Positions 5,135-52,036 of a stretch of 64,000 nt of DNA are shown here, in pieces (within the stretch, counting starts at the first letter, position 1; each line of letters starts with the position of its first letter). The stretch covers positions 2,721,081 through 2,785,080 of the forward strand of contig NC_009012.1 of NCBI RefSeq assembly GCF_000015865.1, given 5' to 3'. The notes beneath the pieces are model-generated. The model was not told where the DNA came from, made no database searches, and saw only the letters and a list, made by a program, of their open reading frames with translations. The stretch is from Acetivibrio thermocellus ATCC 27405. Its GTDB lineage: Bacteria; Bacillota; Clostridia; Acetivibrionales; Acetivibrionaceae. Position numbers and translations under genes: made by a program.

Positions 5135-5698
5135 AATCCTTTCTCCCTTTTTACAAATCTTCCCTGCCACATTCAAGTTTCAGACTGATTAACGAATAAA
5201 CTACAAGAGCCAAACAAAGGAGAAAAAACATCCCAACATTGATTCCGTTAATGGCCTGAATCATTACAAAATACAGAAGCTCACCGTAATAAGAAAAAGA
5301 GCTGCCCGCCAGCTTTGTCAGCATAAACAACGCGTAAACCGGAACAAATATAAAAACTTTATGTTTTTTTATTTTTAAAGAGCAGGCAAAAGCAAAAAGA
5401 CCCAGAATCCCTGAGAAAATCGATATCATAAAAGTATAAATTATGTTATATAATATTTGACATTTTATGTACAATGGATATAAAAACATTTTTGAATTGT
5501 TAACCGGTGCGTCATTAATAAAACTTGAGCAATATATATGGGAAAATCGTATACCGCGATATGTATTTTCGTTTTCAAGGTAAGTAATGTTAATGCTACT
5601 CTAAAAATGTACCATATACCGGCAAAAAAATAGGCCACCTTAATCAAATTTCCTGTATGATTTTGTTGAACAGACACTATCGTACAGGAGGAAAGGAT

Positions 5699-7183: not shown

Positions 7184-7941
7184 TGCCGGTCAATAAAATG
7201 CTTATCGAAACTTACATGAAGAAGCTAAAGATGCCACAGGTGGCAAAAACCTATGAATCCCTGGCAAGAGAAGCCGCAGACAATAATCTGGATTATGAAG
7301 AATACCTGCTGTGTGTGCTGGAACAGGAAGTACATCAGCGGGAGAATAACCGGATCCAGAGAGGGATCCGGCAAGCAGGCTTTCCTGTTATCAAAACGAT
7401 TGAAAGCTTTGACTTCCTTGCCATACCTTCTTTGAACAAACCGCGGGTATTGAAACTCATGCAGGGAGAATATATCCGAAGAAGAGAAAATGTCATTTTG
7501 ATAGGCAACTCCGGAGTAGGGAAAACCCATATTGCAACTGCGCTCGGTTACGAGGCTTGTCGGCAGGGTATGAAGGTCAAATTCTATACGGCAGCTGGTT
7601 TGATAAATGAATTGCTTGCAGCACAGCAGGAATATCGTCTTAATAAGCTTGAAAAGCAATGGCTGGCGCCGCATTTAGTGATCCTTGATGAATTAGGCTA
7701 TGTGCCTTTCAGTAAAATCGGAGCAGAATTGTTGTTCCAGTTCTGCTCTTCCCGATATGAGAGGGGCAGCCTGATCATAACTACAAACTTAGAATTTCCA
7801 AGATGGACGGAGGTGTTAGGCGATGAGCAAATGACAGCCGCCCTGCTTGACCGCTTGACCCATAATGCGCACATTCTGAACATCAATGGTGAAAGCTACA
7901 GGTTTAAGCAGGCTCTTTCCAAGCAGGCAAATAATGACTGA
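7183..7941 (+). CDS. istB: IS21-family ATP-binding helper protein IstB
   Basis: IstB, 252 residues, is the AAA+ ATPase that selects the target and stimulates IstA. Walker A is GNSGVGKTH and Walker B is LVILDELGYVPF, with the sensor region SLIITTNLEF and the arginine-containing ALLDRLTHNAHIL, all in normal order. Its ATG overlaps the istA stop codon. Both genes look functional, so the element may still be mobile. Confidence 0.94.
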   Translation: MPVNKMLIETYMKKLKMPQVAKTYESLAREAADNNLDYEEYLLCVLEQEVHQRENNRIQRGIRQAGFPVIKTIESFDFLAIPSLNKPRVLKLMQGEYIRRRENVILIGNSGVGKTHIATALGYEACRQGMKVKFYTAAGLINELLAAQQEYRLNKLEKQWLAPHLVILDELGYVPFSKIGAELLFQFCSSRYERGSLIITTNLEFPRWTEVLGDEQMTAALLDRLTHNAHILNINGESYRFKQALSKQANND

Positions 7942-38185: not shown

Positions 38186-38296
38186 CACACTCAACCTCTT
38201 TCAGCACCGGCTATATTTATTTGTGATACGTTTCACCGTTTATCACCGAATACATGACTCTTAAATATTAATTGATAGATACTTGCTACATTATGC

Positions 38297-39052
38297 TTAT
38301 ATTTTGACTCTGATTTTATCTGTAATATCCGCCAACAAATCTAAACTGTCTTTTATGTTATTTAAAAATTCTGTTGAAGTAGTGTAATTTCCAACTGACA
38401 TTGTTATAATTTCTGAACCTTCATGATTTATTGTTCTTGTAAAGCCTGAATCTATTTGATTAGGCCTGTAATTATGAACAATATTATTTCGGAATTTATT
38501 TATCTTCTTATAAACAGGATTTTTTGGCAAAGAGTTCAAATATTTATAAAGTGCTTTATCTTTCTTCTCAAGTTTCTTTAAAACATTACCTCTAAATTCT
38601 GAGGAAGGTTTTATACCAAGCCTGTATTTTATATTAATAATATGATAAATAGTATCAATTAATCCTTCAAATCTTGTGTAATAACTGTCAACGTAAAAAC
38701 TAAACCAATATAAGATTCCATAATGTTTCTTTTCAAAATGAGGGAAATATTGCACCGACTTACCATTCTCTCCAGGTGATTTGTACCATTCTTCATCAGG
38801 GATACCTGAATCATAATAATATTTTAGCAACGTATAGTTTACAATTAAATCAAATGCCCTGTTATTAAATTCTTTTAACCAGTATTGCATTTGAATATTG
38901 TAGTACCCATCTTCAAAATCTGAGAGTGAAAATTCAATTTTATTTCCATTGTTATCCAAATAAATTCTGTTTATGATGTCTGCTTTATCTCCACAAATCT
39001 TCATCCATTCTTCTTTGGTAGGATATTTAGCATAATCATAAACATCAATCAT
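38297..39052 (-). CDS. HEPN-domain protein (Cthe_2314-type)
   Basis: The 251-residue, largely helical protein contains an R-x4-H motif, RNNIVH, near residue 195 in the segment KINKFRNNIVHNYRPNQ. This is the catalytic signature of HEPN ribonucleases, and the overall pattern fits the HEPN family named after C. thermocellum Cthe_2314. HEPN proteins often act as toxins or phage-defence RNases. No MNT nucleotidyltransferase partner is encoded next to it. ATG 39052 follows GGAAGG. It borders the proposed left end of the rlmH island but I place it outside. Confidence 0.6.
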   Translation of the reverse strand: MIDVYDYAKYPTKEEWMKICGDKADIINRIYLDNNGNKIEFSLSDFEDGYYNIQMQYWLKEFNNRAFDLIVNYTLLKYYYDSGIPDEEWYKSPGENGKSVQYFPHFEKKHYGILYWFSFYVDSYYTRFEGLIDTIYHIINIKYRLGIKPSSEFRGNVLKKLEKKDKALYKYLNSLPKNPVYKKINKFRNNIVHNYRPNQIDSGFTRTINHEGSEIITMSVGNYTTSTEFLNNIKDSLDLLADITDKIRVKI

Positions 39053-39280
39053 AAAAAACCTTCCTTTCAAAGTTTTTAATTTATTAATTCGACCTTATTA
39101 TAACAAGAATTTATAAGAATTAACAGGCTATTCTAATTATATTTGTGGCAAGATGCATTATGGATAGATAATACTAGGCAATCATAAATTGGCTCATAAA
39201 AGATAATTTACATTAAAATCCATTCGAAAAACTAAAACGATTTACATTCATATTGAACTACTATTTTATTTATCATTTTG

Positions 39281-39352: not shown

Positions 39353-39613
39353 TATTCTATTGATGCATTGTTAATGATACGGCAACTTTCTCCGCTAATT
39401 GTTCTGACGATAGTTACTTCACCATTATCATTCTTAAATCAAATATGTTTTATCATTTACTTTTTAAAAAACACATACATTAGAATATTCCTTTAAAACA
39501 TCTTTTACCTATTTGCCTTTTATAATGTAACTCTTTTCAAATATTAAATAGATAAGAGTGTTTAGACTTTTTTATGATTTTTCCTGTATAATATAAGCGG
39601 AGGCTTGATATAT

Positions 39614-40048
39614 ATGGATATTTTTACACCTGAAAAAAGAAGAGAAGTTATGCAAGCCATAAGGGGAAAAGATACAACCATAGAAATGATGCTTCGAAAA
39701 AAACTTTGGGAAAAAGGATATAGATATAGAAAAAACTACAATAAAATCGTTGGAAAGCCCGACATTGTATTTCCGAAATACAAAATTGCCATTTTTTGTG
39801 ATTCCACCTTCTGGCATGGCTACAACTGGGAAGAGAAAAAGAAACGAATTGGCACAAACAGGGAATACTGGATAAGAAAAATAGAGGGCAACATTGAGAG
39901 GGATAAAAGAATTAATCAAGAATTAATTGCAGGCGGCTGGATAGTTCTAAGATTTTGGGAAACAGATATAAAAAAGAATCTTGATGATTGTATAGCAAAA
40001 ATAGAAGAAGCCATTCAACAAAGAAAATCACAAATTAATGATGGGTAA
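39614..40048 (+). CDS. vsr: Very short patch repair endonuclease Vsr
   Basis: Vsr, 144 residues, nicks next to T:G mismatches that arise when 5-methylcytosine deaminates, starting repair back to C:G. The fold and catalytic residues match: an N-terminal MDIFTPEKRREVMQAIRGKDTT (MxxIxxKdT signature), Asp50 in KPDIVFPKYK, and His68 in STFWHG. ATG 39614 is preferred over an in-frame TTG at 39605 that abuts GGAGG. The gene lies 6 kb from the cytosine-C5 methylase in the same island and is its natural repair partner. Confidence 0.93.
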   Translation: MDIFTPEKRREVMQAIRGKDTTIEMMLRKKLWEKGYRYRKNYNKIVGKPDIVFPKYKIAIFCDSTFWHGYNWEEKKKRIGTNREYWIRKIEGNIERDKRINQELIAGGWIVLRFWETDIKKNLDDCIAKIEEAIQQRKSQINDG

Positions 40049-40125
40049 GAGTACTTTATACTTTTAAAAACATTTTATAGATTTTTTTATAAAATTTTTA
40101 AAAAGTGTAAGGTTGTCTTACCCAT
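40041..40125. repeat. 85-nt long imperfect hairpin after vsr
   Basis: ATGGGTAAGA (40041-40050) pairs with TCTTACCCAT (40116-40125). Inside, ACTTTATACTTTTAA faces TTAAAAAGTGTAAGG and the tip is ATTTTATA/TATAAAAT. It overlaps the vsr stop codon. It may be a strong terminator or a tiny MITE-like insertion. Confidence 0.5.
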
Positions 40126-40171
40126 TTTAAAAAAATAATAAAAAAAGCAAGGGTTATTAAGCAATTAACCC

Positions 40172-40285
40172 CTACTTACTTTTTGCAAGTTCTTGTAAAG
40201 CCTCTTTATTTTGTTTAATCACTTCGTCCATGAGTTTTTCGAGTTCTTTTTGTTCTTTTTCTTGCTTATTGTCTTTCAATATCAT
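40172..40285 (-). CDS. 37-residue charged peptide, unknown
   Basis: A short frame starts at ATG 40285 after a strong GGAAGGAAGTG site and encodes a Lys/Glu-rich peptide, MILKDNKQEKEQKELEKL then MDEVIKQNKEALQELAKSK. It should form one amphipathic helix or coiled coil. It follows the 193-residue gene at 40442 with a 156-bp gap. Function unknown. Support rests on the ribosome site and the amino-acid composition. Confidence 0.4.
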   Translation of the reverse strand: MILKDNKQEKEQKELEKLMDEVIKQNKEALQELAKSK

Positions 40286-40441
40286 CACTTCCTTCCACAA
40301 TAGATATTAAAAAGATTTTGCCAGAAATAAAAACCGTTTCTTAAAGGATTATTTTAAAATAAAGTATTTCTAAATCATTTCTATATATCGTAGATATGCA
40401 AATAGTCCGTTTCTGATTAATTTATCTTTTTCACTTTCTAT

Positions 40442-41023
40442 TTAGGAAAGCATTTCTAAAATCACGTTTGGGGCATTTTTAAGAAAAAGAATAGTTTCTA
40501 TTTTCTTTATTATCTTAACTTTATATTCTGAAGGTATTTCTTCTATGCTTTGATAGTGATATCTGCAATATTTTATTATGGCTTTTACCTCATCTACGAA
40601 ATCATATTTCTCGAAATAATGTTTAATTTTTGTGTCCTTATCGGAGAATAATGCCATCTGTAAAGAAAGCATGTTGTTTAGGCTATTTCCATACTCGTTT
40701 TTACGCTTAGCATAATAATAGTTTATGTATTCACGAATATCAACTAATACTTGAAAATTCTCAAGAAGTTTGCTTATTTGCCCACTTTTTATTACATGGT
40801 CTAAATAGTATTGGTAAATTGTATCTTTATTAAATTTTTTATAAAGCATAGTGATATAATACTTAAACATTTCTAAATGACTATTAAGAAAAAGCAAAAA
40901 ATCTAAAAGTGAAGATGAAATTAAGTTCTCTTCTTGTTCCGTCAGTGTTTTAAAATTGTTAACTAACTTTAGTTTATATTTATTTTGTGAAGAGTTTTCA
41001 TTTATATTAATTTTTGTTTTCAT
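40442..41023 (-). CDS. Hypothetical helical protein of the island, 193 residues
   Basis: I do not recognise this protein. It is rich in Lys, Ile, Asn, Tyr and Leu, largely helical by appearance, with no signal peptide and no clear catalytic motif. A strong AAAGGAGATGATG site precedes ATG 41023. It lies 105 bp downstream of the primase/HTH gene on the same strand and may be cotranscribed with it, so a role in element replication or maintenance is possible but not shown. Confidence 0.6.
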   Translation of the reverse strand: MKTKININENSSQNKYKLKLVNNFKTLTEQEENLISSSLLDFLLFLNSHLEMFKYYITMLYKKFNKDTIYQYYLDHVIKSGQISKLLENFQVLVDIREYINYYYAKRKNEYGNSLNNMLSLQMALFSDKDTKIKHYFEKYDFVDEVKAIIKYCRYHYQSIEEIPSEYKVKIIKKIETILFLKNAPNVILEMLS

Positions 41024-41093
41024 AAAGCATCATCTCCTTTTAAAGGTTTTTTGGGTAGGGGTATGGGTTGTGATACACTATCTATATAAAGTA

Positions 41094-41107
41094 CCATTTG
41101 AGGTGAC
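41094..41107 (+). repeat. Left copy of a 14-bp inverted repeat flanking the primase gene
   Basis: CCATTTGAGGTGAC. Its perfect complement GTCACCTCAAATGG is at 42722-42735, upstream of the same gene. Confidence 0.5.
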
Positions 41108-41128
41108 ACTTACATTATAAAAAAATAA

Positions 41129-42523
41129 TCATTTCTGATTAATATATTTAGAAACTGTCTGTCGTGCTAAACCCAGTTTTCTTGCTATTTCGGTATTATT
41201 TAAACCTTGTTCCTTAAGTTCTAATATTTTTGCTATTGTTTCTTGTTTTTGTTGTTCTCTTTTAGTAAATCCATCCTCGTTTCTTCTCTTTTCTCTTCTC
41301 TTTTTATTCCTTTGCTCTTGCACTATCTTTTTGGATTTTATCGTTTTTAGTTTTCGTTGTTCTTCTTCTGTGATACCCAATATTTCAATTAGATTCTCAT
41401 TTGTATAGTTGTAACCTTTTCTACACCATTTACCATTTACCAGAACTTTTTCACCTGAAACCCATTCCTGATATGCTTTGTATGCTGTTCTAACTATTGC
41501 ATTTACTTGAGATTGTCGCTCTGGTTCATTAAACGAATTGTTTAATAAATGTGTATCCTGAAGTGCTTGTTCTAAATTGCCTTGATTTGTTTGTAGGGTG
41601 TGATAAGCGAATAAAAGCAACATATAATTTCTAGTTCCTGCACAATCGCCTTTTCTCATTTCTACTAAACGCATTATGTCTCTCATTCGTTCTAAATTAA
41701 GTTTTTTAAGTGATTTGCCATATTTTTTACCGTTTTCTTTTAGTGTTTGAACCCTTTCAACTGTATATTCAGCCTTTAGAAGTGTCCTGGGTTTTTTTTT
41801 AATATATTCATCTGGAAGCCATAAATCTATAAATTCATCAATATCGTCTATTGTGTTTCCGTAATTTTTTAAAATTGTTACTTCCTTTTGCTTGTTATTC
41901 TTTATGTTATATGTTCCGTCTATTCGAAGCACTCTGCTTGCATCCATTGCATTTGCATCAGCCCCATAATCCTTCAGAACATCATATATAAATCTCATGC
42001 AAGTTTTCCATTTTTCTTTTAATTCGAAATTAATTTTATTATCTTCTCTGGCTTTAATATTGTTACTGAACTTAAGGATATAATATAAACCGTTCCCTGA
42101 CGAAATCAGCCAAGTTGGGTAGGGGATTTTTATACCAAGAATGTCTTCCTCTAACAACCATATCACTTGTTCATGCGTTAACCCTATCTTATAAGTATCT
42201 ATATCGCTAAAAAATCCTTTTAGTTCATATACACAATTACTATTTCTGCATTTTGTATAAAAAGTGTTTACAGAGAAAAAAGCATTTTCTGTTTCACATT
42301 CGTAATCATCTATCTTATAAAATTTTTGTCCCATTTTTCCATCTTTATTTAAATGGCAACTTGCAATATATCCCTCGCTGTCTTTGTGAAGTTCTTTTAT
42401 AACATTCCCTATCGTGTTGCTTTGGTGAATTGTTAATTTATATCCTAATGGATTTTCAAGAAAAGCATCAAAATCGTCTAAAGGTGTGCTTATAGTGTTG
42501 GTAAATTGGTTTGTGGCTAACAT
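41129..42523 (-). CDS. Primase-like replication protein with C-terminal HTH
   Basis: This 464-residue protein resembles archaeo-eukaryotic primase (AEP) type replication initiators of plasmids and phages: an acidic GFFSDIDTYK strand, a SSGNGLYYILKF segment in the place of the family's SGxGxH strand (the His is Tyr here), and DASRVLRIDGTYNIKN (the D-x-x-R-x-x-R-x-x-G-T-x-N motif). A Lys/Arg-rich linker leads to a C-terminal helix-turn-helix, LNNTEIARKLGLARQTVSKYINQK (about 436-462). Such proteins begin replication of the element that carries them. A strong GGAAGGGAG site precedes ATG 42523. The gene lies between two 14-bp inverted repeats. Confidence 0.7.
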   Translation of the reverse strand: MLATNQFTNTISTPLDDFDAFLENPLGYKLTIHQSNTIGNVIKELHKDSEGYIASCHLNKDGKMGQKFYKIDDYECETENAFFSVNTFYTKCRNSNCVYELKGFFSDIDTYKIGLTHEQVIWLLEEDILGIKIPYPTWLISSGNGLYYILKFSNNIKAREDNKINFELKEKWKTCMRFIYDVLKDYGADANAMDASRVLRIDGTYNIKNNKQKEVTILKNYGNTIDDIDEFIDLWLPDEYIKKKPRTLLKAEYTVERVQTLKENGKKYGKSLKKLNLERMRDIMRLVEMRKGDCAGTRNYMLLLFAYHTLQTNQGNLEQALQDTHLLNNSFNEPERQSQVNAIVRTAYKAYQEWVSGEKVLVNGKWCRKGYNYTNENLIEILGITEEEQRKLKTIKSKKIVQEQRNKKRREKRRNEDGFTKREQQKQETIAKILELKEQGLNNTEIARKLGLARQTVSKYINQK

Positions 42524-42721
42524 CGTATCATCTCCCTTCCTTTTGTGAAAAAGGGGGAGGACGTGATATTAGCCGTATTTTTTTATTCAATTGTCCGCAA
42601 TTCGTTATTTACGTTATGTATGAATTTTTCCGAAGTTGTCTCCCACTATACGATGTGCATTATAAAAAGATTCTTTCTAATGTCAAATTTTTTCTATAAA
42701 AAATAAAAAATTTTTAAACCG

Positions 42722-42735
42722 GTCACCTCAAATGG
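42722..42735 (-). repeat. Right copy of the 14-bp inverted repeat flanking the primase gene
   Basis: GTCACCTCAAATGG, the exact complement of 41094-41107. It lies 199 bp upstream of the primase start. Confidence 0.5.
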
Positions 42736-42808
42736 ACGAAACTATAAAACTAATCCAAAAATTAAAGAAAAATAATCAATAATTATAGCCTTTTATCATT
42801 TTGTATAT

Positions 42809-42905
42809 TATAATTTATGTATAGTGTCTTTGAGAGAGGGCTAAGGGCTATCCACAGTCCACGCCCAAGCAAAAAGCACCGGTTTTTCTGGTGCTTTTTG
42901 CTTTA
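42809..42905 (+). ncRNA. Candidate small RNA ending in a strong terminator
   Basis: A TATAAT (42809-42814) is followed, after about 55 nt that encode no protein I can see, by a 13-bp perfect stem AGCAAAAAGCACC/GGTGCTTTTTGCT (42868-42880 and 42890-42902) with T-rich flanks on both sides. The transcript would be about 85 nt. No clear -35 is visible. The hairpin alone could equally end transcription of the gene at 43120-43869. The rest of 42524-43119 holds nothing I can name. Confidence 0.4.
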
Positions 42906-43119
42906 CAATTAATTAAGTAACAATGAAACAATAGTATCTATCTCTCTTAAGCCTCTTTTGTAAATTTATAGCATGCAGTGTTAATCTCTGCCCTTTTTCT
43001 GTTGTCTCAGTTGTCTATTCAATAAGTGTATAACTTATACTAAGCCATTCTTTTAAAATCAAGCCTGTTATAAAAATTGCAAAAAATAACGCTTTTTTAA
43101 ATCGTTTATGTCAGGTAAT

Positions 43120-43869
43120 TTAAACAACTATTGAATAATTTCCGTTGCAATCACGCCTATAAATATGGTTGCTGATTTTATTTATATCTGTGTCTATCGT
43201 CATTAAATTTTGTAATATGTTTTTATAAATAGAAAAGGTGGATTCTCTATATCTTGCACAAAACAGGGCGGACGCGGAGGGCATACAAAAAACAATATCA
43301 TCACCAACTTTTTGTTTAATTTGTTTTTGTATATGTTTGCTAAGAAATAGGGTAGCCGCGAAGTCAGTTGTAAATCTCAAACTATATATTTCAAGAGAGT
43401 TATCAAGCCTTGAGAGAATGTTTGCCATCTTATTTAAATTAATCATGCTTTTTTCTTCCAATTCATTTAAATTAATATTTGCGTTTTTTAAATCTTCTTT
43501 TAAAACAAAGCGGAATACTTCCCCTAAGTCGCTTACATACATTATTTTTAAATCACAAAATAAATCTTTTTCGACAAAATTTTTGCTTATGTTATTATCA
43601 TTTGTTTTTTGCTTTATTAATGGAAAGACATTCGATAAATCAAGTTTAAACTTGTAAGTATCCAGAATATTGTTTATTATTTTAAGATAGTTTTTTAAAT
43701 TTTTAGTATACCCGTATAATAGATACTCTTGATACATCGGCTTTATCGGCACAGATACATTAGTGACACCTTTTGCAATATATATTCTGTCTTCGTTATC
43801 AATACGCACTTCGTCAAACAGTGATTTTAAATCTTTTATTATTTTATTTGTAAATTCCTCATATTTCAT
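43120..43869 (-). CDS. DUF5688-like protein of unknown function
   Basis: The 249-residue protein starts at ATG 43869 after AAGAAAGGAG; a longer frame upstream has a hydrophobic, gene-unlike N-terminus and no ribosome site. The layout, MKYEEFTNKIIKDLK at the N-terminus, IMYVSDLGEVFRFVLKE in the middle, then a Phe/Ala-rich FAATLFLSKHIQKQI with VFCMPSASALF, recalls the DUF5688 proteins of clostridia, but I hold this loosely. No catalytic residues can be named. The 388-bp gap upstream to 44257 shows only a terminator. Confidence 0.5.
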   Translation of the reverse strand: MKYEEFTNKIIKDLKSLFDEVRIDNEDRIYIAKGVTNVSVPIKPMYQEYLLYGYTKNLKNYLKIINNILDTYKFKLDLSNVFPLIKQKTNDNNISKNFVEKDLFCDLKIMYVSDLGEVFRFVLKEDLKNANINLNELEEKSMINLNKMANILSRLDNSLEIYSLRFTTDFAATLFLSKHIQKQIKQKVGDDIVFCMPSASALFCARYRESTFSIYKNILQNLMTIDTDINKISNHIYRRDCNGNYSIVV

Positions 43870-44204
43870 AATACCAACTCCTTTCTTAAAACAATATAAC
43901 GTCAAAAAACAAAAATGTCTGGTCCTCAAAACAATAAGGTAGTAAAACATGTAAGTAAAGAATAAGAAGTGCAAGAGAGTTTTATAAATAAATATTGTAA
44001 AGCGTTTAATTTCTGGAAAAAACAAAGCAATCAAAGTGGGATAAGCATAGTTGACGAAGAGAAAAGATTTCTAAAGAAATAGATGCCAGTAGCATCCAGA
44101 GGATTATGTAGGGGTGGGTGAATACGATATACATGTAATAAAAGATTATTCCTTTAAACTATTAGTAAGGTAAGAATGTTGGAATTTATCTGTATGTATT
44201 AAAC

Positions 44205-44232
44205 ATAAAAACAGGAACCGTTTGGTTCCTGT
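44205..44232 (-). terminator. Terminator of the 65-residue membrane protein gene
   Basis: ACAGGAACC (44211-44219) pairs with GGTTCCTGT (44224-44232); on the minus strand the stem is followed by TTTTTATGTTT. Confidence 0.7.
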
Positions 44233-44257
44233 TTCTGTTTTAGGAGGTATTTTTCAT

Positions 44258-44455
44258 TTATTTTGCTTTTATTAATCGATAATCTTTCCAAATTATAAAA
44301 AAGACATACATAGTAAATATTGAAAACGGAATATACCAAATGTTTAATATTTGTTGTCCTACGCTTGGAATCTTAGAAAAAGTAGCCAGCAATATTGCAA
44401 ATATACTGTATCCAACAAAAGCCGGGAATACATTCATAAGAAGAACTTTTTTCAT
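44258..44455 (-). CDS. Small two-helix membrane protein, 65 residues
   Basis: Two hydrophobic segments (about 5-27 and 37-57) with a short polar loop and a basic C-terminus (WKDYRLIKAK). A GGAGTGAAGTGCT site precedes ATG 44455 and a good terminator follows. I do not recognise the family. It stands alone between the restriction gene and the DUF5688-like gene. Confidence 0.6.
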   Translation of the reverse strand: MKKVLLMNVFPAFVGYSIFAILLATFSKIPSVGQQILNIWYIPFSIFTMYVFFIIWKDYRLIKAK

Positions 44456-44561
44456 AGCACTTCACTCCTATGGAACTTGTTATTTCTTGTCTTTAGTATA
44501 GCGCGCAACTTTGAAAAAGGCCAGAACTTTTTTAAAATGTAATCAAATTGCAGCAAAATAA

Positions 44562-44590
44562 AAAACTGTTGTATAGGTTACAACAGTTTT
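44562..44590. terminator. Terminator of the restriction-modification operon
   Basis: AAAACTGTTGTA (44562-44573) pairs perfectly with TACAACAGTTTT (44579-44590). T-rich tails exist on both strands; the minus-strand tail TTTTTTATTTT ends the operon. Confidence 0.8.
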
Positions 44591-44605
44591 TATTAAATAT
44601 TTCAT

Positions 44606-45574
44606 TTATGTATCCCAAGGTTCAAAATGTGAGTACAGTAAGGGAGGGACTCCAACTAACTGTACATCAAATTTAAGGCTTGGTTCCACTTCTGTGCGTG
44701 CATTATGTATTCGTAGGCTTATTGTCCAGCCATTATCCAATGCCACTAATACTGTATTCCGTGAACCAGGCTTAAAACCTATATTATAAAACCTTGTTGG
44801 CATTGGTAATTGTTGGACATTAATTAATGGGCGCTCTCTACCAGCATTTCTATTTAAAGTTCCATACATATTAAACGCCTGTACCTGAGTAACTCTCCTG
44901 TTATCAATTGTGATAATTTTATAAAAATCATTGCGCCCCAATAAATAATGAAGTAGCCTCTCAGGAATAACACCTTGATTATTTTGATTTAATCTTTCTA
45001 ATTCCCGGATAAAAGCCTCTAAAAGTGGGACATAAAATCTTTCTTCTTTATTCGATATATTTCTCCAAAGTTCGCCTTGTTCTCGTAATTCTTCTAATTC
45101 ATCAAAAAGCGGATTTATTTCAATAAAATAACTTTCTGAACATGGTATTCCAAACCATAACTCACCAAAATCAATCGTTCTTGATAGCCTACTATGTTTT
45201 ACCGCTGCGTGGTTATGTTTACATGATAATCCAATTTCCCATTCATTTTGTCTACGGATACAAAGAATATCCCTCACATCTCCCTGTTGCCCTCTTGCAT
45301 CCTCTTGTATTGAAAGATAAAGCGGAACATTTGTTAATGGAGTTGTAAGTTGGGGTTCCAGACGCAAAATTACACGTATTGCTGCGTCTGCTCCCAAATC
45401 CATCTTGTTTTGCATATCAGGTGTAGCATTTTCATATTTTTGTCTTGCAATTTCTAAAGCACTGTTTTGTTCTATTACTACATCTTGACTATCCGCTAAT
45501 TCATTATAAATAGATTGTAAACAAGCGTATTCAAACGCTTTGCCTAACTCTGTTTGAATACTCACATCATTCAC
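44606..45574 (-). CDS. HaeIII-like type II restriction endonuclease
   Basis: The 322-residue protein resembles the HaeIII family of GGCC-cutting enzymes. In the core, Asp in QGDVRDILCIRR and Glu-x-x-x-x-Lys in EWEIGLSCKHNHAAVKHSRLS form a PD-(D/E)xK-type site, and KHNHxAxKHSRLS is the strongest family resemblance. It follows the C5 methylase and overlaps its stop codon by a few bases, the usual arrangement of a type II pair. The start is unclear: GTG 45574 is chosen, with TTG 45577 and GTG 45565 as alternatives, none with a good ribosome site, which suggests translation coupled to the methylase. GGCC specificity is inference. Confidence 0.75.
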   Translation of the reverse strand: MNDVSIQTELGKAFEYACLQSIYNELADSQDVVIEQNSALEIARQKYENATPDMQNKMDLGADAAIRVILRLEPQLTTPLTNVPLYLSIQEDARGQQGDVRDILCIRRQNEWEIGLSCKHNHAAVKHSRLSRTIDFGELWFGIPCSESYFIEINPLFDELEELREQGELWRNISNKEERFYVPLLEAFIRELERLNQNNQGVIPERLLHYLLGRNDFYKIITIDNRRVTQVQAFNMYGTLNRNAGRERPLINVQQLPMPTRFYNIGFKPGSRNTVLVALDNGWTISLRIHNARTEVEPSLKFDVQLVGVPPLLYSHFEPWDT

Positions 45575-46571
45575 CAACTTTTTGTTCTAATTCTTTAACA
45601 TTTGCATTTAACTTCTCTTCAAGTATTTCATATAATTTCTTACCTATTACTTCTGCAAGTTTTACCGGGACAGCATTTCCTATCTGTCGATACTTAGAAG
45701 TTAGATTTCCTACGAATTCCATATCACGAGGGAAAGTTTGTATAACTGCTGCTTCTTGCCAACTAAATCTTCTTGTTTTCCCTTCACCAAATATCCACTT
45801 ATCTTCAGCAATCTTAATCATGTCTGGAGAAGATGGGTGCAACGGAACTTGCTTCGCCATTGCTGGAATTGTATAACTTACTTCGTCCCAACCTCTTTTT
45901 CGGTTTCTCGACATATACCTACTTGAATAAGAAGCATGGCATATATCACTCTGTTTTGGTTCAGGCATATCCCCGATAGCCTCTCTCAAGGTAACTTTAT
46001 ATGGGAACGGCTCAGGAAATTTAAAATCTTTTACTTCTAAATCTTTTCTAAATCCGTATAGAATAACACGCCATCTGTCTTGCGGAACTCCATAGTCAGC
46101 GGCATTAACAAGATTAGGATATACATCATATCCTTTGCTCGCAAAATCCTCTATTATGGCTTCAATAATTTCGCCATCGCCAAGAGTAAGGATGCCTTTT
46201 ACATTTTCTGCAATAAAAGCATAAGGTTGCTTTAATTCAACTAATTTAACAAAGTAACGATACAATTTATTTCTTTCATCATTAATTTTTCGTGGTCCTG
46301 CCAACGAAAAGCCTTGACATGGAAAACCACCCGTTATCACGTCTGTATCTGGAACATCAGAGTAATCAATTTTTGCAATATCTCCTTGCACAACATCTGC
46401 CTGACTCCATAGACGGTATGTAGCACAAGCATCTTTATCAATATCATTAGCCCAAACGGTTTTGAAACCTGCTAATTCTAATCCCATGTCTAGACCGCCA
46501 GCACCAGCAAATAGTGACGCAACAGTGTATTTTCTGATGTTTCTTATTTTATTTAAGTCAATTATTTTCAT
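45567..46571 (-). CDS. Cytosine-C5 DNA methyltransferase
   Basis: This 334-residue enzyme has the ordered motifs of m5C methylases: I (VASLFAGAGGLDMGLELAGF), IV with the catalytic Cys (GGFPCQGFSLAG), VI (AENVKGI), VIII (YGVPQDRWRVILYG), IX/X with RQIGNAVPV near the end, and a target-recognition region between (about 190-270). It protects host DNA from the partner endonuclease encoded next to it. ATG 46571 follows AAGGAGTG. The first-gene position lets methylase be made before endonuclease. Confidence 0.95.
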   Translation of the reverse strand: MKIIDLNKIRNIRKYTVASLFAGAGGLDMGLELAGFKTVWANDIDKDACATYRLWSQADVVQGDIAKIDYSDVPDTDVITGGFPCQGFSLAGPRKINDERNKLYRYFVKLVELKQPYAFIAENVKGILTLGDGEIIEAIIEDFASKGYDVYPNLVNAADYGVPQDRWRVILYGFRKDLEVKDFKFPEPFPYKVTLREAIGDMPEPKQSDICHASYSSRYMSRNRKRGWDEVSYTIPAMAKQVPLHPSSPDMIKIAEDKWIFGEGKTRRFSWQEAAVIQTFPRDMEFVGNLTSKYRQIGNAVPVKLAEVIGKKLYEILEEKLNANVKELEQKVGE

Positions 46572-46703
46572 TTGAGAACACTCCTTACCCTTTACCACTG
46601 TTTAATAGTATTATATAATAATTAGATAAGTATGTTAAGGGGTAATTTCTATATCCCTTCAAATAGCAAAAAGCATGTAAAAATCATATATATTTTTTGC
46701 TTT

Positions 46704-47186
46704 TTATTCTTTTCCCTTTCTCTTTTTATTTTTTCTTTGCCCTCTTTTCTCTTTTTTACAGATTGGGCATTTCCCAAAACCCTTGCTTCGTAATTGCACA
46801 CTTGCAAGATACCTATGTTCAGAATTATCTGGGCATATCCACCAGACTTTTTTATGCGACTGATGACAAGTATTCCAAGGAGTTACATCTCCATTACGAT
46901 TATAATCCCAAAATGGCAATAAGTGTGGCAACCTTGTAGCAACACAATTTACAGCACTTGCCTTTGGGTTTTTAGAAGCGCAATAAGGACAACCTTGATT
47001 ATTTAAAGTTCTATTAAAAATGGCCGCTTCCCAAGGCTGTCCACAATTAGGGCATTTCCACCAGACTTTCTTACCGCTTCCATAACTTAAACTATTTATA
47101 TCAATTGTATTTTTCTCTGCATCAAATTCTTCTGTAATTTCAGGAAATCTATTAATTAATTTATTTTGTTCTGTTAGCCTTTTCAT
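46704..47186 (-). CDS. Zinc-ribbon / treble-clef protein (DUF4379-like)
   Basis: The 160-residue protein holds repeated zinc-binding units: WWKCPNCGQPWEAAIFNRTLN followed by GCPYCASK, then a second WWICPDNSEHRYLASVQLRSKG with GKCPICKK. Each has W-x-C-P and a CPxC pair, as in the DUF4379 zinc-ribbon family, whose members often accompany Vsr-like or restriction nucleases. A basic tail (RGQRKNKKRKGK) suggests DNA binding. AAAGAGGTGATTTGT precedes ATG 47186. It lies directly upstream of the methylase on the same strand, 133 bp away. Role unknown. Confidence 0.7.
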   Translation of the reverse strand: MKRLTEQNKLINRFPEITEEFDAEKNTIDINSLSYGSGKKVWWKCPNCGQPWEAAIFNRTLNNQGCPYCASKNPKASAVNCVATRLPHLLPFWDYNRNGDVTPWNTCHQSHKKVWWICPDNSEHRYLASVQLRSKGFGKCPICKKEKRGQRKNKKRKGKE

Positions 47187-47274
47187 ACAAATCACCTCTT
47201 TTTCTTGGTTTTGAGGCATTTTATAGAAAGATACTTTTTAATATCAAGTATTTTTTTTCAATGAAATTTTAAAT

Positions 47275-47310
47275 AAAAAAATCCTTGGGATTATGACTCC
47301 CAAAGATTCT
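47275..47310 (-). terminator. Terminator of the resolvase gene
   Basis: AATCCTTGGGA (47280-47290) pairs with TCCCAAAGATT (47298-47308), one G-T pair, followed on the minus strand by a T-run. Confidence 0.65.
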
Positions 47311-47671
47311 TTTTAAATTGTCTGTTTGTTTTCCTCTTCTTGTTCTCTTGCAAATTTATAGAAAGTATTTCGCTTTAATCCTAATAACTGCATGGCTTTT
47401 GTCGCTGTAATTTCACCGTTTTTCCATTTGGTGTAAACCTCATGAAAATTTTTGGGTTTTGGGACGGGAGGACGTCCAAACCTTATCCCCCTCCGCATGG
47501 CTGCGTCAATTCCTTCACGTTGTCTTTCTTTTATCTTTTTCCTTTCTTCTTCTGCAAGCCAACTCAGTATCTGCAAAACTAAACTAGTAACCAATTCTCC
47601 AAAACCATCGAGTTGGGCATATCTTCTTGTATCCAACAATGGCATATCAAGGATTACAATATTAATTTTAT

Positions 47672-48819
47672 CTGTTGTGCTACCTGATAGTTTACAGGCT
47701 CAAGGAATATTATGGCAACTCAAACACCTATAGTATTCCTACTGAGTTTGAGGAATTAAATTTTTTAACCAAATACTAACTCTTTGATCCTCGAAAAATT
47801 AATATCACGGCCTATAAGCTTATTGATGTAATAACATAAGTTGTAGGCTAAAAGCTTGGTTTTTACCCTGGCTAAAAATCCCCAGTACGACTTTGCAAGC
47901 ACCTTCTCTATATTGAGTTGCTGGGTAAGCTGAGAAGCCGAAGTCTCTATCCGGCGCCTTAATTTGAAGATTAATTGCCTTATAGCTTTCGGAAACTGTA
48001 ACTTGCTGTTGCTCCTTTTAACAGGTAGGATCTCTATTTCCTTTTCCTCTTTTAGTTCAACAGCAAATTCTGTTCCAATATATCCCTTATCTCCAATTAA
48101 GGTTATCCGCCGGTAAGAATCAATCAGGTCCCATACACCAGCACGATCATCAACATTGGCAGGTGTAATTGCAAAATCAGTTATAAAACCATCCAGGGTT
48201 GCAAGCATATGCAGCTTATAGCCCAGATATATTTCTTTTTTGGAAGGACATTTTCCATAAGTTGCTCCGAAACCACGGAATGTTTTATGGAACTTGGCTC
48301 TTCCAAATTTGCACACCGGTATAGGAATACTATCTACTATCCGGTAAGGTTGCTGGGCATACCCTGTAAGGTTTGAGAGTTCTTTTCTGATTTCCTCAAT
48401 TACTGCGTGCAGGTTTCTGCGGGTTCTATTGAACCTGGTCCTGTCACAGAATTTGGGAAACAGGTCTCTCATATTCTTCTTACAGAAACCCAACCAAGCT
48501 TTCTCAGAGTCGATAGTGAGTAACTCTCCAACAATACATATGGTAATTATTTCACTATCGCTCATAACCGAATTATTGATGTTACAGCGATTTGCAATGT
48601 GTGGTGGAGTTACCTTCTGGTAAATGTCGTCAATTATGATGTAGGCGACAGTTACAAAGTCTTTTAAGTTTTCAATTTCTTTGATATAATAATTTTTATC
48701 AAGCTCCATCATATATTGTGACCTCCTATCATTAGTTTGGTGTTTAATGATAGGTTACAATATTATGTTGGAGTTTTTCATTCGCAATTTTTACCTGTAA
48801 AAAAAGCTAGCACAACAAG
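47672..48819 (-). mobile_element. IS982-family insertion sequence, about 1148 bp
   Basis: Ends are related inverted repeats, CTGTTGTGCTACC on the left and CTTGTTGTGCTAGC (complement) on the right. A 10-bp direct repeat TTAATTTTAT (47662-47671 and 48820-48829) flanks the element. It carries one transposase gene. The exact end may be off by one or two bases because the two terminal repeats differ by a C/CT. Confidence 0.8.
47765..48712 (-). CDS. IS982-family transposase
   Basis: This 315-residue DDE transposase has the family landmarks DSIPIPVCKFGRAKFHKTF (first Asp), ATYGKCPSKKEIYLGYKLHML, ITLIGDKGYIGTE (second Asp) and the basic LRRRIETSASQLTQ (Glu) helix. Length fits IS982. The gene looks intact, so the insertion may still be mobile. 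It is transcribed in the same direction as the resolvase it interrupts. Confidence 0.92.
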   Translation of the reverse strand: MMELDKNYYIKEIENLKDFVTVAYIIIDDIYQKVTPPHIANRCNINNSVMSDSEIITICIVGELLTIDSEKAWLGFCKKNMRDLFPKFCDRTRFNRTRRNLHAVIEEIRKELSNLTGYAQQPYRIVDSIPIPVCKFGRAKFHKTFRGFGATYGKCPSKKEIYLGYKLHMLATLDGFITDFAITPANVDDRAGVWDLIDSYRRITLIGDKGYIGTEFAVELKEEKEIEILPVKRSNSKLQFPKAIRQLIFKLRRRIETSASQLTQQLNIEKVLAKSYWGFLARVKTKLLAYNLCYYINKLIGRDINFSRIKELVFG

Positions 48820-49110
48820 TTAATTTTATTATCAACCAGCCATTGCCACTCCTGTAATATTTGTGTTTTATTACGCCCCAATCTATCCAAGGAATGGATA
48901 AAAAGCGTATCTCCAGAACGAATACTTCTTTTTAACGCTTGCCACCCAGGACGGTTAAAATCCCTCCCAGATATTTTATCTACGTAAATATCTCTCTCGT
49001 CAATATACTCGTTCAATTGTTTAATTGCATCGAGTTGCCTGTTCAAGTTTTGTTCTTTTGTGCTTACACGCAAATAAGCATAATTCCTTTGCATATCTCT
49101 ACCCCTATTT

Positions 49111-49216
49111 AAAAAAGTATACTTTTAAAAACAATAAAATTTTGCTGGAAATCATGTTTTAAAAAGTTTATATGCTATTTTTTAAACATTTGTAAAGTAT
49201 CATATACTTTTATAAA
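49111..49216. promoter_or_regulatory. Candidate res site of the serine resolvase
   Basis: Just upstream of the resolvase start lie AAAAGTATACTTTT (49113-49126, a perfect palindrome), a TTTAtatgctattttTTAAA dyad near 49165-49185, and AAAGTATCATATACTTT (49194-49210). Two or three spaced dyads next to the resolvase gene fit the layout of res sites. The rest of 49095-49391 shows an imperfect hairpin near 49338-49372 and no gene. Confidence 0.5.
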
Positions 49217-49391
49217 AATATAGCGCACTATCATTAAAAAAGCAGCATGTAAAATACAACCAAAAGTTGTAGAAAAGGGAGTAGAATAGTAATATTTATA
49301 AAGTCACCTTTCAGTTTACGCTTGTCCAAAACAAAAAAAGTGATAGCCTTATTCTCTAGAACAAGCCTACCACCTTATCTATAGAATTATA

Positions 49392-51485
49392 TTAATTTAA
49401 AACCCCACAAAGTTCCTTTTCTTTTTGTTCCCTATACTTCCGATATTCTTCCGCAAATTTTTCTTCAAATTCTTGTAAGTCTAAATTCATATTTCTATTT
49501 ATGAAATCATCCATGAATTCTCTATCTTCATCATTTTCAACTTCTTTTTGTAATTCACTAATATATTCTTTAAACTTACTGCTTACATTTTGTTTTTCTA
49601 TATCCTTTACATATTCTTCGATATCCCCATAATGCTGTAAAAGCAGGTTTAATTCTTTTCTCCCTTTAGATTTCAGGTATTCATTAAATGACTTAAAGTC
49701 TTGAACTCCTAATACTTTGCATAATCCGTATATATTAGAATACTGGTTATACTCTACCTCTTTTAATGTTAGCCTCTTGGGACCATACCGTGCATTTGAA
49801 ACAGTGCCAATAACTATTTTTGAATATACTTTCTCTAAAAGTTGCCTTTTTTGAAGAAGTGGAAGCGAATTAAAATATTCTTCTATATTCTCAAATTCCT
49901 CTTGCTCTTTTGCTTCACTAAGTAACGCTTCCCTTCGCTTTATTGCCTGAATTATTTTATTTTGTTGTTCTTCTTTAAGTTTTTTAACTTCTTTTATATC
50001 TTTTTCTGTATCTTTTATCATTTTTTCTATACGGTTATACTTTAAGGAACCCTTTTCTTCTTCTATTTGCATATTAATTAAGTTATCTAATTTTGTTAGA
50101 AGCCTCATTTCGTTTTTCTCAAGATTCTTAATTTCACCTTTTATTCTATTTATTTCTTTATCAAAAAGCATTTCTTCATTAATCCCGTGCTTTTCTCTCA
50201 AATAATTTTGATATTCTTTCACAAGTATAAAAGCCTCTTTTAACCTTGTAAAAAAGTCTTCTTTTATAAGATTAAAGGCTCGTTCTTCCTGCACGCTATA
50301 ATACCCATTACATAAGTTTTTTCCAGCATTAAACGTAGAACATTTATAATACACCTTTGCCTCTGCTATACTACCATCGGTTCTCTTGTGCCCTGGTTGA
50401 AGGCTACTTGTCATATTCCCCCCGCAGTGAGGGCATTTCAATATGTTAATAAACATTTTTTTGTGTGCATCAAAATATTCTTGTTTAGTTATAGAGGACA
50501 TTGCTTCTGCCATATTCAAGTTTTTTCTTATTTTTCTCCTACCCCGGAGCCTTTCAAGAGTTTCGAGAAAAAATTCTTCACTGATAATTGCTTCATGATT
50601 TCCCTTTGGCAAGTCAAAAAAGTCAATATCGTAAATACTTATTTTTTCCCAAATTCTAACACCTTGCTCTGTTTTTTTCTTCTGTTTTCTTTTTGCCCAA
50701 AATAGTCTTCCGCAATATACTGGATTTTCTAGTATTTTTTGAACGGTAGCGGTTGCAAATTGTTTATTTTGTCTTGTCCTATAACCATTTAAGTTTAAGT
50801 ATTGTGCAACATTTTTTATACTATATTTCTCTACCGTAAAAAGGTGGAATATAAGTTCTATGATTGGTTTTTCGTTTTCATCTACGACAAGCCGTTTCTT
50901 AATATCTTTTTTTCTTGTCTTTTTATCTGAGTTAAAGTTTTTATTCTCCTGTTGACTTACAGAATAAAATTCATATTTGTAGCCAAGCGGTGCGGGGCCT
51001 CCGTAGTAATTTCCAGCCTCTACGGATTTTTCTAATCCTGCTTTTACCCTTTCCCGTAATTGGTCAATAAAAAGTTCATTTAACATTGAATAAATACTTA
51101 CCATAATTTTGGCATTTTGCCCATTAATATCACCCATGAAGGCTCCATCGCAAGTAAACAAACGTAAATTATTCTCCTTGAGAATTTTAAAAATTTCTAA
51201 AGTATGGCTTATAGAACGGCTTATACGGCTTAAATCATAACAACAAATCCCTTCAATTTGCGAACCGGGTTCTTGTAGTAGTTTTAATAATTCCTTTAAT
51301 TCATCCCTTTGTTCTATAGTTATGCCACTTATTCCTTTGTCACAAAAATATATGAAATCTTTTTCACTATAACCTTGTGATTTTAATAAAGCCTCGCACC
51401 GTTCTTTTTGCACTTCAAGTGAATACCTGTCTTCTGCTGCTTGCTTTTCGCTTGAAACTCTCGTGTAAATTGCAATCTTACCCAT
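49392..51485 (-). CDS. Large serine recombinase (site-specific integrase)
   Basis: The 697-residue protein has a resolvase-type catalytic domain (about 1-150; nucleophile Ser11 in YTRVSSEKQ, with YDLSRISRSISHTLE), a recombinase domain (about 165-300; AGNYYGGPAPLGYKY), and a zinc ribbon (about 355-400; CPHCGGNMTS, then YKCSTFNAGKNLC). It ends in a long coiled coil (about 430-520), the features that control integration versus excision. It starts with GGACGGAGGGAG before ATG 51485 and lies 71 bp from the rlmH stop, just where an integrase should be next to its own attachment site. All key residues are present. Confidence 0.93.
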   Translation of the reverse strand: MGKIAIYTRVSSEKQAAEDRYSLEVQKERCEALLKSQGYSEKDFIYFCDKGISGITIEQRDELKELLKLLQEPGSQIEGICCYDLSRISRSISHTLEIFKILKENNLRLFTCDGAFMGDINGQNAKIMVSIYSMLNELFIDQLRERVKAGLEKSVEAGNYYGGPAPLGYKYEFYSVSQQENKNFNSDKKTRKKDIKKRLVVDENEKPIIELIFHLFTVEKYSIKNVAQYLNLNGYRTRQNKQFATATVQKILENPVYCGRLFWAKRKQKKKTEQGVRIWEKISIYDIDFFDLPKGNHEAIISEEFFLETLERLRGRRKIRKNLNMAEAMSSITKQEYFDAHKKMFINILKCPHCGGNMTSSLQPGHKRTDGSIAEAKVYYKCSTFNAGKNLCNGYYSVQEERAFNLIKEDFFTRLKEAFILVKEYQNYLREKHGINEEMLFDKEINRIKGEIKNLEKNEMRLLTKLDNLINMQIEEEKGSLKYNRIEKMIKDTEKDIKEVKKLKEEQQNKIIQAIKRREALLSEAKEQEEFENIEEYFNSLPLLQKRQLLEKVYSKIVIGTVSNARYGPKRLTLKEVEYNQYSNIYGLCKVLGVQDFKSFNEYLKSKGRKELNLLLQHYGDIEEYVKDIEKQNVSSKFKEYISELQKEVENDEDREFMDDFINRNMNLDLQEFEEKFAEEYRKYREQKEKELCGVLN

Positions 51486-51487
51486 AT

Positions 51488-51577
51488 TGACTCCCTCCGT
51501 CCTGTGTTATGGCTTCCTACTTCTAAGCATAACACATGAATTTTTGGAGTCATGTATTAGCGATGATACGGTTCACC
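51488..51577. other. Putative attachment junction at the 3' end of rlmH
   Basis: Between the recombinase start and rlmH lie nested dyads: TGACTCC (51488-51494) with GGAGTCA (51546-51552), and GTGTTATG (51504-51511) with CATAACAC (51528-51535). Serine-recombinase sites are imperfect dyads of this kind. The last codons of rlmH (GAA CCG TAT CAT CGC TAA, complement of 51557-51574) are equivalent to the SCC attB sequence GAAGCATATCATAAATGA. Confidence 0.55.
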
Positions 51578-52036
51578 ATTGATAATCTTAAATGATCTGT
51601 ACAACTGTTCAAGAAGTATCAACCTTGTTAATTGATGCGGAAATGTCATGTCCGAAAGGGACAGGCTAAAGTCCGCCATATTTAGAAGCTCCTTGTCTAT
51701 CCCCAGGGACCCTCCGATTACAAAAGTGACATGCGATTTGCCGGAAATAAAAAATGACTCTAGCTTGCGGGCCAATTCCTCAGAACTCATTTTGCTTCCG
51801 CGAACATCCAGGACAACAAGCAATGTTCCCTCTTTCAGCCTCTTAACAACTCTCTCGGCCTCACGCTTTTTAACCTGCTGTTCCTCAAGGCTGCTAAGAT
51901 TGTCGGGTGCATGTTCATCCTCAACTTCAATTATTTCCAGTTTGCAATATCTGGAGAGCCTCTTACTATACTCGTTTATTCCCTCTTTCAAATATTTTTC
52001 CTTTATCTTTCCCACCGCAATTATTGTAATCCTCAT
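51557..52036 (-). CDS. rlmH: 23S rRNA pseudouridine-1915 N3-methyltransferase RlmH
   Basis: RlmH, 159 residues, methylates pseudouridine 1915 of 23S rRNA with S-adenosylmethionine. The SPOUT knot is clear: FVIGGSLGI (SAM loop) and LSLSDMTFPHQLTRLILLEQLYRSFKIINGEPYHR. Length and C-terminus are complete, so integration of the island rebuilt the last codons. It follows walJ by about 20 bp. This is the gene known as orfX in staphylococci, the SCC attachment site. Confidence 0.96.
   Translation of the reverse strand: MRITIIAVGKIKEKYLKEGINEYSKRLSRYCKLEIIEVEDEHAPDNLSSLEEQQVKKREAERVVKRLKEGTLLVVLDVRGSKMSSEELARKLESFFISGKSHVTFVIGGSLGIDKELLNMADFSLSLSDMTFPHQLTRLILLEQLYRSFKIINGEPYHR

Follow-up and report, generated by a model that had tools for sequence, protein, structure and literature searches.

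The window analyzed here, a 64,000-nucleotide stretch of Acetivibrio thermocellus ATCC 27405 (NC_009012.1, positions 2,721,081 to 2,785,080), contains a 13,340-bp integrative element at the 3' end of rlmH, the gene of an rRNA methyltransferase. We consider it very likely that the element was inserted there by its own large serine recombinase (LSR) and that it brought, besides its cargo, a repair of the RlmH tail. Both ends, a near-identical copy in another clostridial order and conserved attachment (att) halves support this directly. A preliminary description of this DNA had proposed an rlmH-anchored serine-recombinase island resembling the staphylococcal cassette chromosome (SCC), and the flanking direct and inverted repeats, together with relatives at rlmH in other genomes, bear this out. 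Judged by sequence comparison, the island is real and SCC-like, resides in Clostridia and appears to have moved recently. The part that is new and testable is how this family of elements handles the RlmH tail.

Element Ends and Crossover

The element runs on the minus strand from GA at 51574-51573 to GA at 38234-38233 (table 1). At the near junction (..AATGGT GA ACCGTATCATCGCTAATACATGACTC) attR completes rlmH as P-Y-H-R-stop, and at the far junction (GAGTCATGTATTCGGTGATAAACGGT GA AACGTATCACAAATAA) the displaced original tail of the gene still encodes NGETYHK-stop, as does the rlmH tail of two relatives (G011 and G001). The left edge had previously been set at 39374, about 1.1 kb short of the true one, which is the att site at 38233-38234 and places the HEPN gene (38297-39070) inside. 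Direct repeats and imperfect inverted repeats are present at both ends, and attR, attL, attP and attB agree with one another around a single dinucleotide, as in site-specific serine-recombinase elements.

These ends are convincing because a 12-bp inverted arm, GAGTCATGTATT, recurs at exactly 26 bp from the GA core on each side in the four copies with both ends, namely those of the window, Caloramator quimbayensis, Lutispora thermophila and a second Lutispora-group genome (G787). GA is central in all eight near-side junctions read, including two away from rlmH, and in five of six far-side junctions, the sixth (G013) being a decayed relic. A search for exact repeats found none of 14 or more bases that matched the rlmH end; the imperfect att repeat was recognized through translation and the relatives. 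Serine integrases use a palindromic attP of about this size centered on a two-base overlap. Their attP is longer than attB (PMC3783163; this and the other articles cited by accession were consulted as excerpts).

We propose that the recombinase brings together an imperfectly palindromic attP of 54 bp and the last rlmH codons (..GGT-GA followed by A..) and that strand exchange would take place at the GA of the Glu codon. The circular form would carry attP as GAGTCATGTATTCGGTGATAAACGGT-GA-ACCGTATCATCGCTAATACATGACTC, and the empty site would join rlmH to its downstream neighbor as ..GGTGAAACGTATCACAAATAA. Upon integration the element half-site joined to rlmH would supply the new tail and the original one would move to the far end, and the host would keep a working RlmH because the half-site rebuilds the essential catalytic tail. 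We infer the exact crossover, the activity of the recombinase, its directionality and the route of transfer. A GA-core recombinase of thermophile origin with defined 54-bp att sites could also serve as a genome tool.

Several observations count against this interpretation. The direct repeat at the ends matches at 17 of 23 positions, and 17 or 18 matches were reached by 25 of 200 base shuffles of the 64 kb, which makes the far-end repeat by itself no better than chance. The near junction of Caloramator has G where crossover at GA predicts A at the next base, for which synonymous drift may account. The window copy may be impaired because its resolvase is broken. Two of the seven loci holding the recombinase family are not at rlmH (L017, and a G005 copy with two stop codons), hence the choice of rlmH as target is not absolute. 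The recombinase has few close relatives in the sequences searched, and neither an excised circle nor an empty allele from the same species was seen.

The 12-mer GAGTCATGTATT was also counted over 11 genomes as a possible att marker and proved uninformative, G005 being full of copies in another context. This genome has at least 34 exact copies among those listed and 49 when up to one mismatch is allowed. Among the copies read, 13 lie in one conserved dispersed repeat unrelated to att (e.g., L030-L041), mostly on the plus strand in the first 2 Mb and mostly on the minus strand thereafter, and one is an att arm beside the recombinase pseudogene.

Related Elements and Transfer between Hosts

Caloramator quimbayensis, which we take to belong to another order of Clostridia than the window host, carries the whole island beside its own rlmH. 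Since this near-identical island adjoins an RlmH only 58% identical to that of the window, we conclude that transfer between hosts has occurred. The island proteins are 94.8-99.7% identical between the two copies, except for the recombinase (87%). The DNA between 49700 and 38312, excluding an IS982 insertion present only in the window copy, was compared in 27 blocks, none longer than 400 bp. Of these, 24 showed 97.7-100% identity (18 of them 99% or more), and the three lower ones fall near 41700-40900 (88%) and 39303-39112 (95%). Identity is 72-84% over the start of the recombinase gene with its leader (51700-50101) and 94% over the adjoining 50100-49701, a pattern that suggests a mosaic inside the recombinase gene, as if the cargo had entered a resident recombinase end. 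No conjugation family was recognized in the Pfam scan of ten window proteins; therefore, the element probably spreads between cells by a route other than conjugation genes of its own.

More distant relatives also sit at rlmH. The 14-kb element of Lutispora thermophila (genome G067) shares the recombinase (79%), resolvase, Vsr and HEPN protein (82%) but has a C5 methyltransferase and an MspI-family endonuclease in place of the HaeIII block, and in the G787 element (recombinase 71%) that place is taken by a type I restriction system. A Clostridiaceae metagenome-assembled genome (MAG) carries the recombinase (79%) at rlmH in an element that runs off the contig, bringing the loci of this family at rlmH to five of the seven holding it. 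G005 retains a far-end relic 1 kb past rlmH, with a MazF-like gene between. In L017 (1-220), from a contig of 3.9 kb that was binned to an archaeon, the recombinase follows the tail of a gene other than rlmH that to us looks glutaredoxin-like.

The comparison with empty rlmH sites that had been proposed for this island did yield rlmH loci free of the recombinase within the same family: it is present in none of eight from other genomes (about 1.4-1.5 kb of downstream flank), one of which is that of G005 with its far-end relic. In G009 a 418-amino acid (aa) open reading frame (ORF) separates rlmH from the next gene downstream; no att arm was found in the stretch of this genome that was read, and we treat it as lacking the element. 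At a threshold of 1e-60 relatives of the recombinase occur in 3 of 391 Clostridia genomes, the window's own included, and at 1e-25 in 4 of 291, with few candidates scored per genome and the fourth at 25% identity. Two of 22 genomes of the Lutispora order have one, and a scan sensitive to close relatives only gave four loci. The recombinase was not found in viral contigs, nor in plasmids at 1e-20, a phage search gave no close relative, and a scan of viral contigs for the att pattern found none.

Relationship to SCC Elements

Like SCC and SCCmec, the window element has a large serine recombinase, sits in the last codons of rlmH, is flanked by direct and imperfect inverted repeats and, like some SCC, carries restriction cargo; conjugation genes of its own are likewise unrecognized among the ten proteins scanned. 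It differs in having a single 697-aa recombinase of another clade, a GA core upstream of TATCATAA, no match to the DUF927/Cch helicase or the Pol-SSB primase, and clostridial hosts. The search for DUF927/Cch or COG3378 helicases and Pol-SSB covered ten window proteins against Pfam and ten against NCBIfam. The Enterococcus cassette chromosome (ECC) resembles the window element in its use of the rlmH 3' end, its serine recombinases and its att sites of about 50 bp with dyad symmetry, and departs from it in having a ccrAB pair, a conserved TATCATAA motif and a host in the Bacilli (PMC6222049). The PolA-SSB islands of Bacilli and Clostridia likewise have a large serine recombinase, lie mostly downstream of rlmH and carry restriction systems, but their C. 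difficile and C. perfringens examples are in ssrA and they have a Pol-SSB-helicase replication module (PMC10061031). Since rlmH islands outside staphylococci have thus been published, for Enterococcus and other Bacilli (PMC6222049, PMC10061031), their existence is not new. In the literature searched we found neither the window island nor a split RlmH described; PMC6791906 names genes of the island without discussing it in the excerpts consulted.

The preliminary description left it undecided whether this use of rlmH was independent of SCC or related to it, and equated the last codons of the gene with the SCC attB. Insertion does fall in the same last codons, but the crossover is placed differently. 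The att sites of SCC and ECC are built around TATCATAA, the C of which is essential (PMC6222049), whereas the GA core of the window element lies upstream of it (attR TATCATCG, attL TATCACAA), and the type II half-sites described below (GTGATTTAC) lack the motif.

The recombinase itself scored 123.9 bits against the curated CcrC profile, 96.6 against CcrB and 59.9 against CcrA, where the cut-offs are 900, 900 and 700, so that no ccr complex is called; the XisF profile scored 95.9, as high as CcrB. In a CcrC-profile search of 398 genomes, with up to three candidates scored per genome, the window LSR took 55th place among those listed and none exceeded the cut-off. A tree built with Ccr sequences, as had been suggested, has as its best topology one in which the five rows of the window clade share a long branch (2.23) and stay outside the CcrB group (90/96). 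Four ORFs were dropped beforehand: that of L029, which is a pseudogene, two of L073 that duplicate the CcrA and CcrB rows, and one of 384 aa from L071. In the approximately unbiased (AU) test, a single clade of the window sequences, CcrB and three LSRs near rlmH had p 0.388 and is thus unrejected.

It is on this last result, on CcrC as the top curated match, however far under its cut-off, and on the identity of the targeted gene and codons that the case for a true, distant member of the SCC/ECC lineage would stand, its recombinase descending from an rlmH-targeting Ccr ancestor and its target inherited. We consider such descent unlikely given the best tree, the equal XisF score, the low rank in the CcrC search, the position of the core together with loss of the motif from type II half-sites, and the single recombinase instead of a CcrAB pair. 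Because of the crossover position and the recombinase tree, independent use of the same target is favored. With a tight recombinase clade far from Ccr and another crossover point, the element works like SCC, lacks defining features of SCC among those tested and is probably not SCC. Far less plausible is that rlmH is a mere hotspot, the island having been placed by homologous exchange of the locus or by plasmid decay with the recombinase as passive cargo: the Caloramator mosaic suggests homologous exchange between elements and decayed remains occur at rlmH in G013 and G005, but where the recombinase is intact the host RlmH shares 56-71% identity with that of the window, too little for routine homologous exchange, and the element ends are base-exact with symmetric half-sites.

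With insertion by its own recombinase as the preferred explanation, parking in the rlmH tail, as in SCCmec, is also practiced in thermophilic and anaerobic Clostridia by what looks to be a distinct lineage of serine recombinases, whose elements carry defense cargo of the same kind as SCC and have moved between distant genera.

CcrB-like recombinases also occur near rlmH in other genomes, two of them within about 300 bp of the gene and convergent with it (L087 in G444 and L088 in G782) and a third 12.5 kb away (L089 in G433); in the tree all three fall with the staphylococcal CcrB. A set of SCC-type core genes, namely DUF927, two recombinases, SAUGI, DUF960 and DUF1643, occurs in L073 (NZ_CP121525.1 147788-154798), part of a 386-kb record labeled as a plasmid of Staphylococcus epidermidis.

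Two Types of att Site and the RlmH Tail

The att sites of this family are of two types. In type I (window, Caloramator and L. thermophila) the half-site joined to rlmH reads CCG TAT CAT CGC TAA and RlmH ends in ..EPYHR. In type II (G787, the Clostridiaceae MAG and a relic in G095) it is ACGGTGATTTAC or ACCGTGATTTAC, and RlmH ends early, in GER, GEP or NEP. The one complete type II attP is symmetric at 23 of 26 positions, compared with 18-19 of 26 in type I, and the type I half-site thus looks adapted to restoring rlmH at a cost to att symmetry.

Each of the residues Y152, H153 and R154 is essential in Escherichia coli RlmH, whose active site joins the S-adenosylmethionine (SAM) pocket of one chain to the tail of the other (PMC5430550). 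The insertion site suggests a demand on its occupants, which must repair an essential catalytic tail, and two solutions to it. Type I elements would meet the demand by encoding PYHR in attP.

Other second pieces of rlmH were also seen. L091 (G510) has a broken rlmH and a complete second one 6.6 kb apart (4674-5150 and 11772-12247), and another element may there have brought a full replacement gene. In L090 (G493) a 31-residue rlmH tail fragment lies 2.5 kb downstream of an intact rlmH (4848-4937 and 7455-7931) and is perhaps the far end of another rlmH-targeting island.

A Compact RlmH-Like Partner

A gene for a 130-aa RlmH-like protein (L084:4248-4640, minus strand) lies close to the far end of the G787 element, with copies 93% identical in G095 and 79% identical in G013. 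Besides this complete type II element, two relics are thus accompanied by the compact gene. In G095 the junction at rlmH is of type II and no far-side site was found; in G013 the compact gene is preceded by a type I restriction system and followed directly by a decayed far-side relic. We think it somewhat more probable than not that elements of this family have repeatedly turned the homodimeric, one-gene RlmH into an obligate two-gene heterodimer, type II elements cutting the tail and supplying a compact partner on which the host then depends.

In the compact protein about 22 residues near positions 43-64 are missing, as are the IGGSxG loop and FPHQL; its C-terminal end is EQIYRAYRIINNAPYHK. 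Its single-chain model (mean predicted local distance difference test, pLDDT, 73.7) matches solved RlmH/OrfX best (1to0_B, TMq 0.82; 4fak, 0.78). It is therefore like RlmH, a SPOUT rRNA methyltransferase, in structure and in the retained tail motif, and unlike it in the missing SAM-site motifs and residues and in that any second rlmH found with it is tail-less. The two sets of motifs reside on two separate proteins. Full-length RlmH has both the SAM motifs and the tail (15/15), truncated RlmH has the SAM motifs (11/11) and no tail (0/11), and compact proteins have no SAM motif (IG[GA]SxG or FPHQL; 0/11) and all have the QxYR..YH[KR] end (11/11); this count leaves out G181 and the frameshifted G013 rlmH and includes G399 as truncated.

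A class-wide search with the compact gene matched 33 of 361 genomes; the top seven matches are compact, and four of the other 26, checked by sequence, are full-length. Further compact genes came from a search within the family. All 11 compact-gene genomes with a second rlmH have a tail-less one (G013, G787, G095, G158, G083, G328, G123, G043, G788, G789 and G381), and in a twelfth, G181, the compact gene is at the contig start and no other rlmH was found. As a control we surveyed 80 of 83 other genomes with a CcrC-profile match (G569, G583 and G756 were left out), which are mostly from other classes of the phylum and thus distant. The main rlmH reached the last profile position in all 69 with an rlmH match, none of the 69 had a compact second copy, and G493 and G510 showed the other second pieces described above. 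For the first eight found, the association of compact gene with tail-less rlmH has a Fisher p of 4.8e-11, the species not being independent. Compact proteins form one clade (100/99), and tail loss amounts to five changes on the tree, at least four by well-supported branches. Nonsynonymous differences (pN) were below synonymous ones (pS) in all 36 pairs within sets (seven compact, six truncated), with synonymous divergence (dS) saturated in 28 pairs. Compact RlmH was not found in a search of viral contigs.

Alternatively, the compact gene could encode a self-sufficient RlmH or be a decaying copy, with no role as partner to the truncated host RlmH. The heterodimer is, after all, a prediction from sequence comparison and a single-chain model, the compact gene of G013 adjoins an rlmH that is also frameshifted, and in G399 a tail-less rlmH has no compact gene found with it, the draft contig ending inside the element; the last of these also speaks against an obligate pair. 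Given the complementary motifs of the two proteins and pN below pS in every pair, we regard this alternative as doubtful, though it keeps some weight.

With a compact partner as the favored reading, the truncated and compact proteins would together make one active site because RlmH joins the SAM pocket of one chain to the tail of the other, and because of this the host would become dependent on the element, an addiction without toxin. Most simply, the compact gene would have spread with elements of this family and taken over the tail function for the truncated host RlmH. In some lineages the pair may persist where the element is no longer seen: the two genes are adjacent in G158 and G083, with no recombinase or att arm in the 8 kb around. 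In G788 and G381 they are about 150 bp apart. If true, a mobile partner subunit would be an unusual path from a homodimeric housekeeping enzyme to a heterodimer.

Cargo and Gene Content

The cargo appears from the compared copies to be a swappable restriction-modification block, HaeIII in the window, MspI in L. thermophila and type I in G787, and the window copy also carries Vsr, a HEPN protein and a putative replication protein. The vsr gene and HaeIII-like system reported for the island are confirmed by Pfam matches to Vsr, the HaeIII endonuclease and the C5 methyltransferase. Vsr lies beside a C5 methylase in two elements. Such a pairing agrees with a role in repairing deaminated 5-methylcytosine.

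In ATCC 27405, methylation of GGCC is 100% and is ascribed to Cthe_2321 (PMC6791906). We take Cthe_2321 as the island methyltransferase because the same article pairs it with the HaeIII-family endonuclease Cthe_2320, and the full methylation of GGCC makes the island methylase very probably active. The HEPN family appears in PMC3710099 as Cthe_2314, for which no context was detected. Among 371 Clostridia genomes its two best matches, both over 134 bits, come from the elements of the window and of L. thermophila, and four weaker ones (28-80 bits) lie elsewhere; the surroundings of one of these, in G121, contain neither rlmH nor a recombinase of the window family.

The recombinase starts 71 bp past the rlmH stop, as first described, and its Pfam domains agree with a large serine recombinase. 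The resolvase is also present but is broken into two frames by the IS982-family insertion; its parts are contiguous in Caloramator and form one 207-aa frame in Lutispora. The assignment of an archaeo-eukaryotic primase (AEP)-type replication protein is weakly supported: Pfam gives no primase family, PHROG gives "replication protein" at 73.9 bits and "DNA polymerase/primase" at 26.7 bits, the predicted fold is unusable (pLDDT 38.9), and a viral-contig search with the protein gave no match. The inverted repeat between rlmH and the recombinase is a possible operator.

Table 1. Features of the rlmH locus and the integrative element (window coordinates)
Feature	Position	Strand	Remarks
rlmH, 159 aa	51557..52036	-	Target gene; reads into element-encoded tail
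attR	51547..51600	-	rlmH B-left 51600-51575, GA 51574-51573, element half-site 51572-51547 ending in arm AATACATGACTC
Inverted repeat GTGTTATG...CATAACAC	51504..51535	-	Between rlmH and recombinase; same in L016, L018 and L019
Large serine recombinase, 697 aa	49392..51485	-	Pfam Resolvase, Recombinase, Zn_ribbon_recom
Small resolvase, N-terminal part	48807..49094	-	Split by IS982
IS982-family insertion	about 47672..48819	-	Transposase 47765-48712; absent from Caloramator copy
Small resolvase, C-terminal part	47313..47645	-	
DUF4379 zinc-finger protein	46704..47219	-	
C5-cytosine methyltransferase	45567..46598	-	GGCC per PMC6791906 (excerpt)
HaeIII-family restriction endonuclease	44606..45577	-	527 bits
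DUF1444-like protein	43120..44034	-	
Putative replication protein	41129..42523	-	C-terminal helix-turn-helix; weak primase assignment
193-aa protein	40442..41023	-	No family match
Vsr mismatch endonuclease	39605..40048	+	
HEPN_Cthe2314 family protein	38297..39070	-	Near far end in window and Caloramator; also in L. thermophila element
attL	38217..38260	-	Element half-site 38260-38235 starting with arm GAGTCATGTATT, GA 38234-38233, displaced rlmH tail

The genome (one contig, 3,843,301 bases) has a single rlmH match. The gene order upstream on the minus strand is a murA-like gene, a beta-lactamase-fold protein and then rlmH, the first two names being our own reading.

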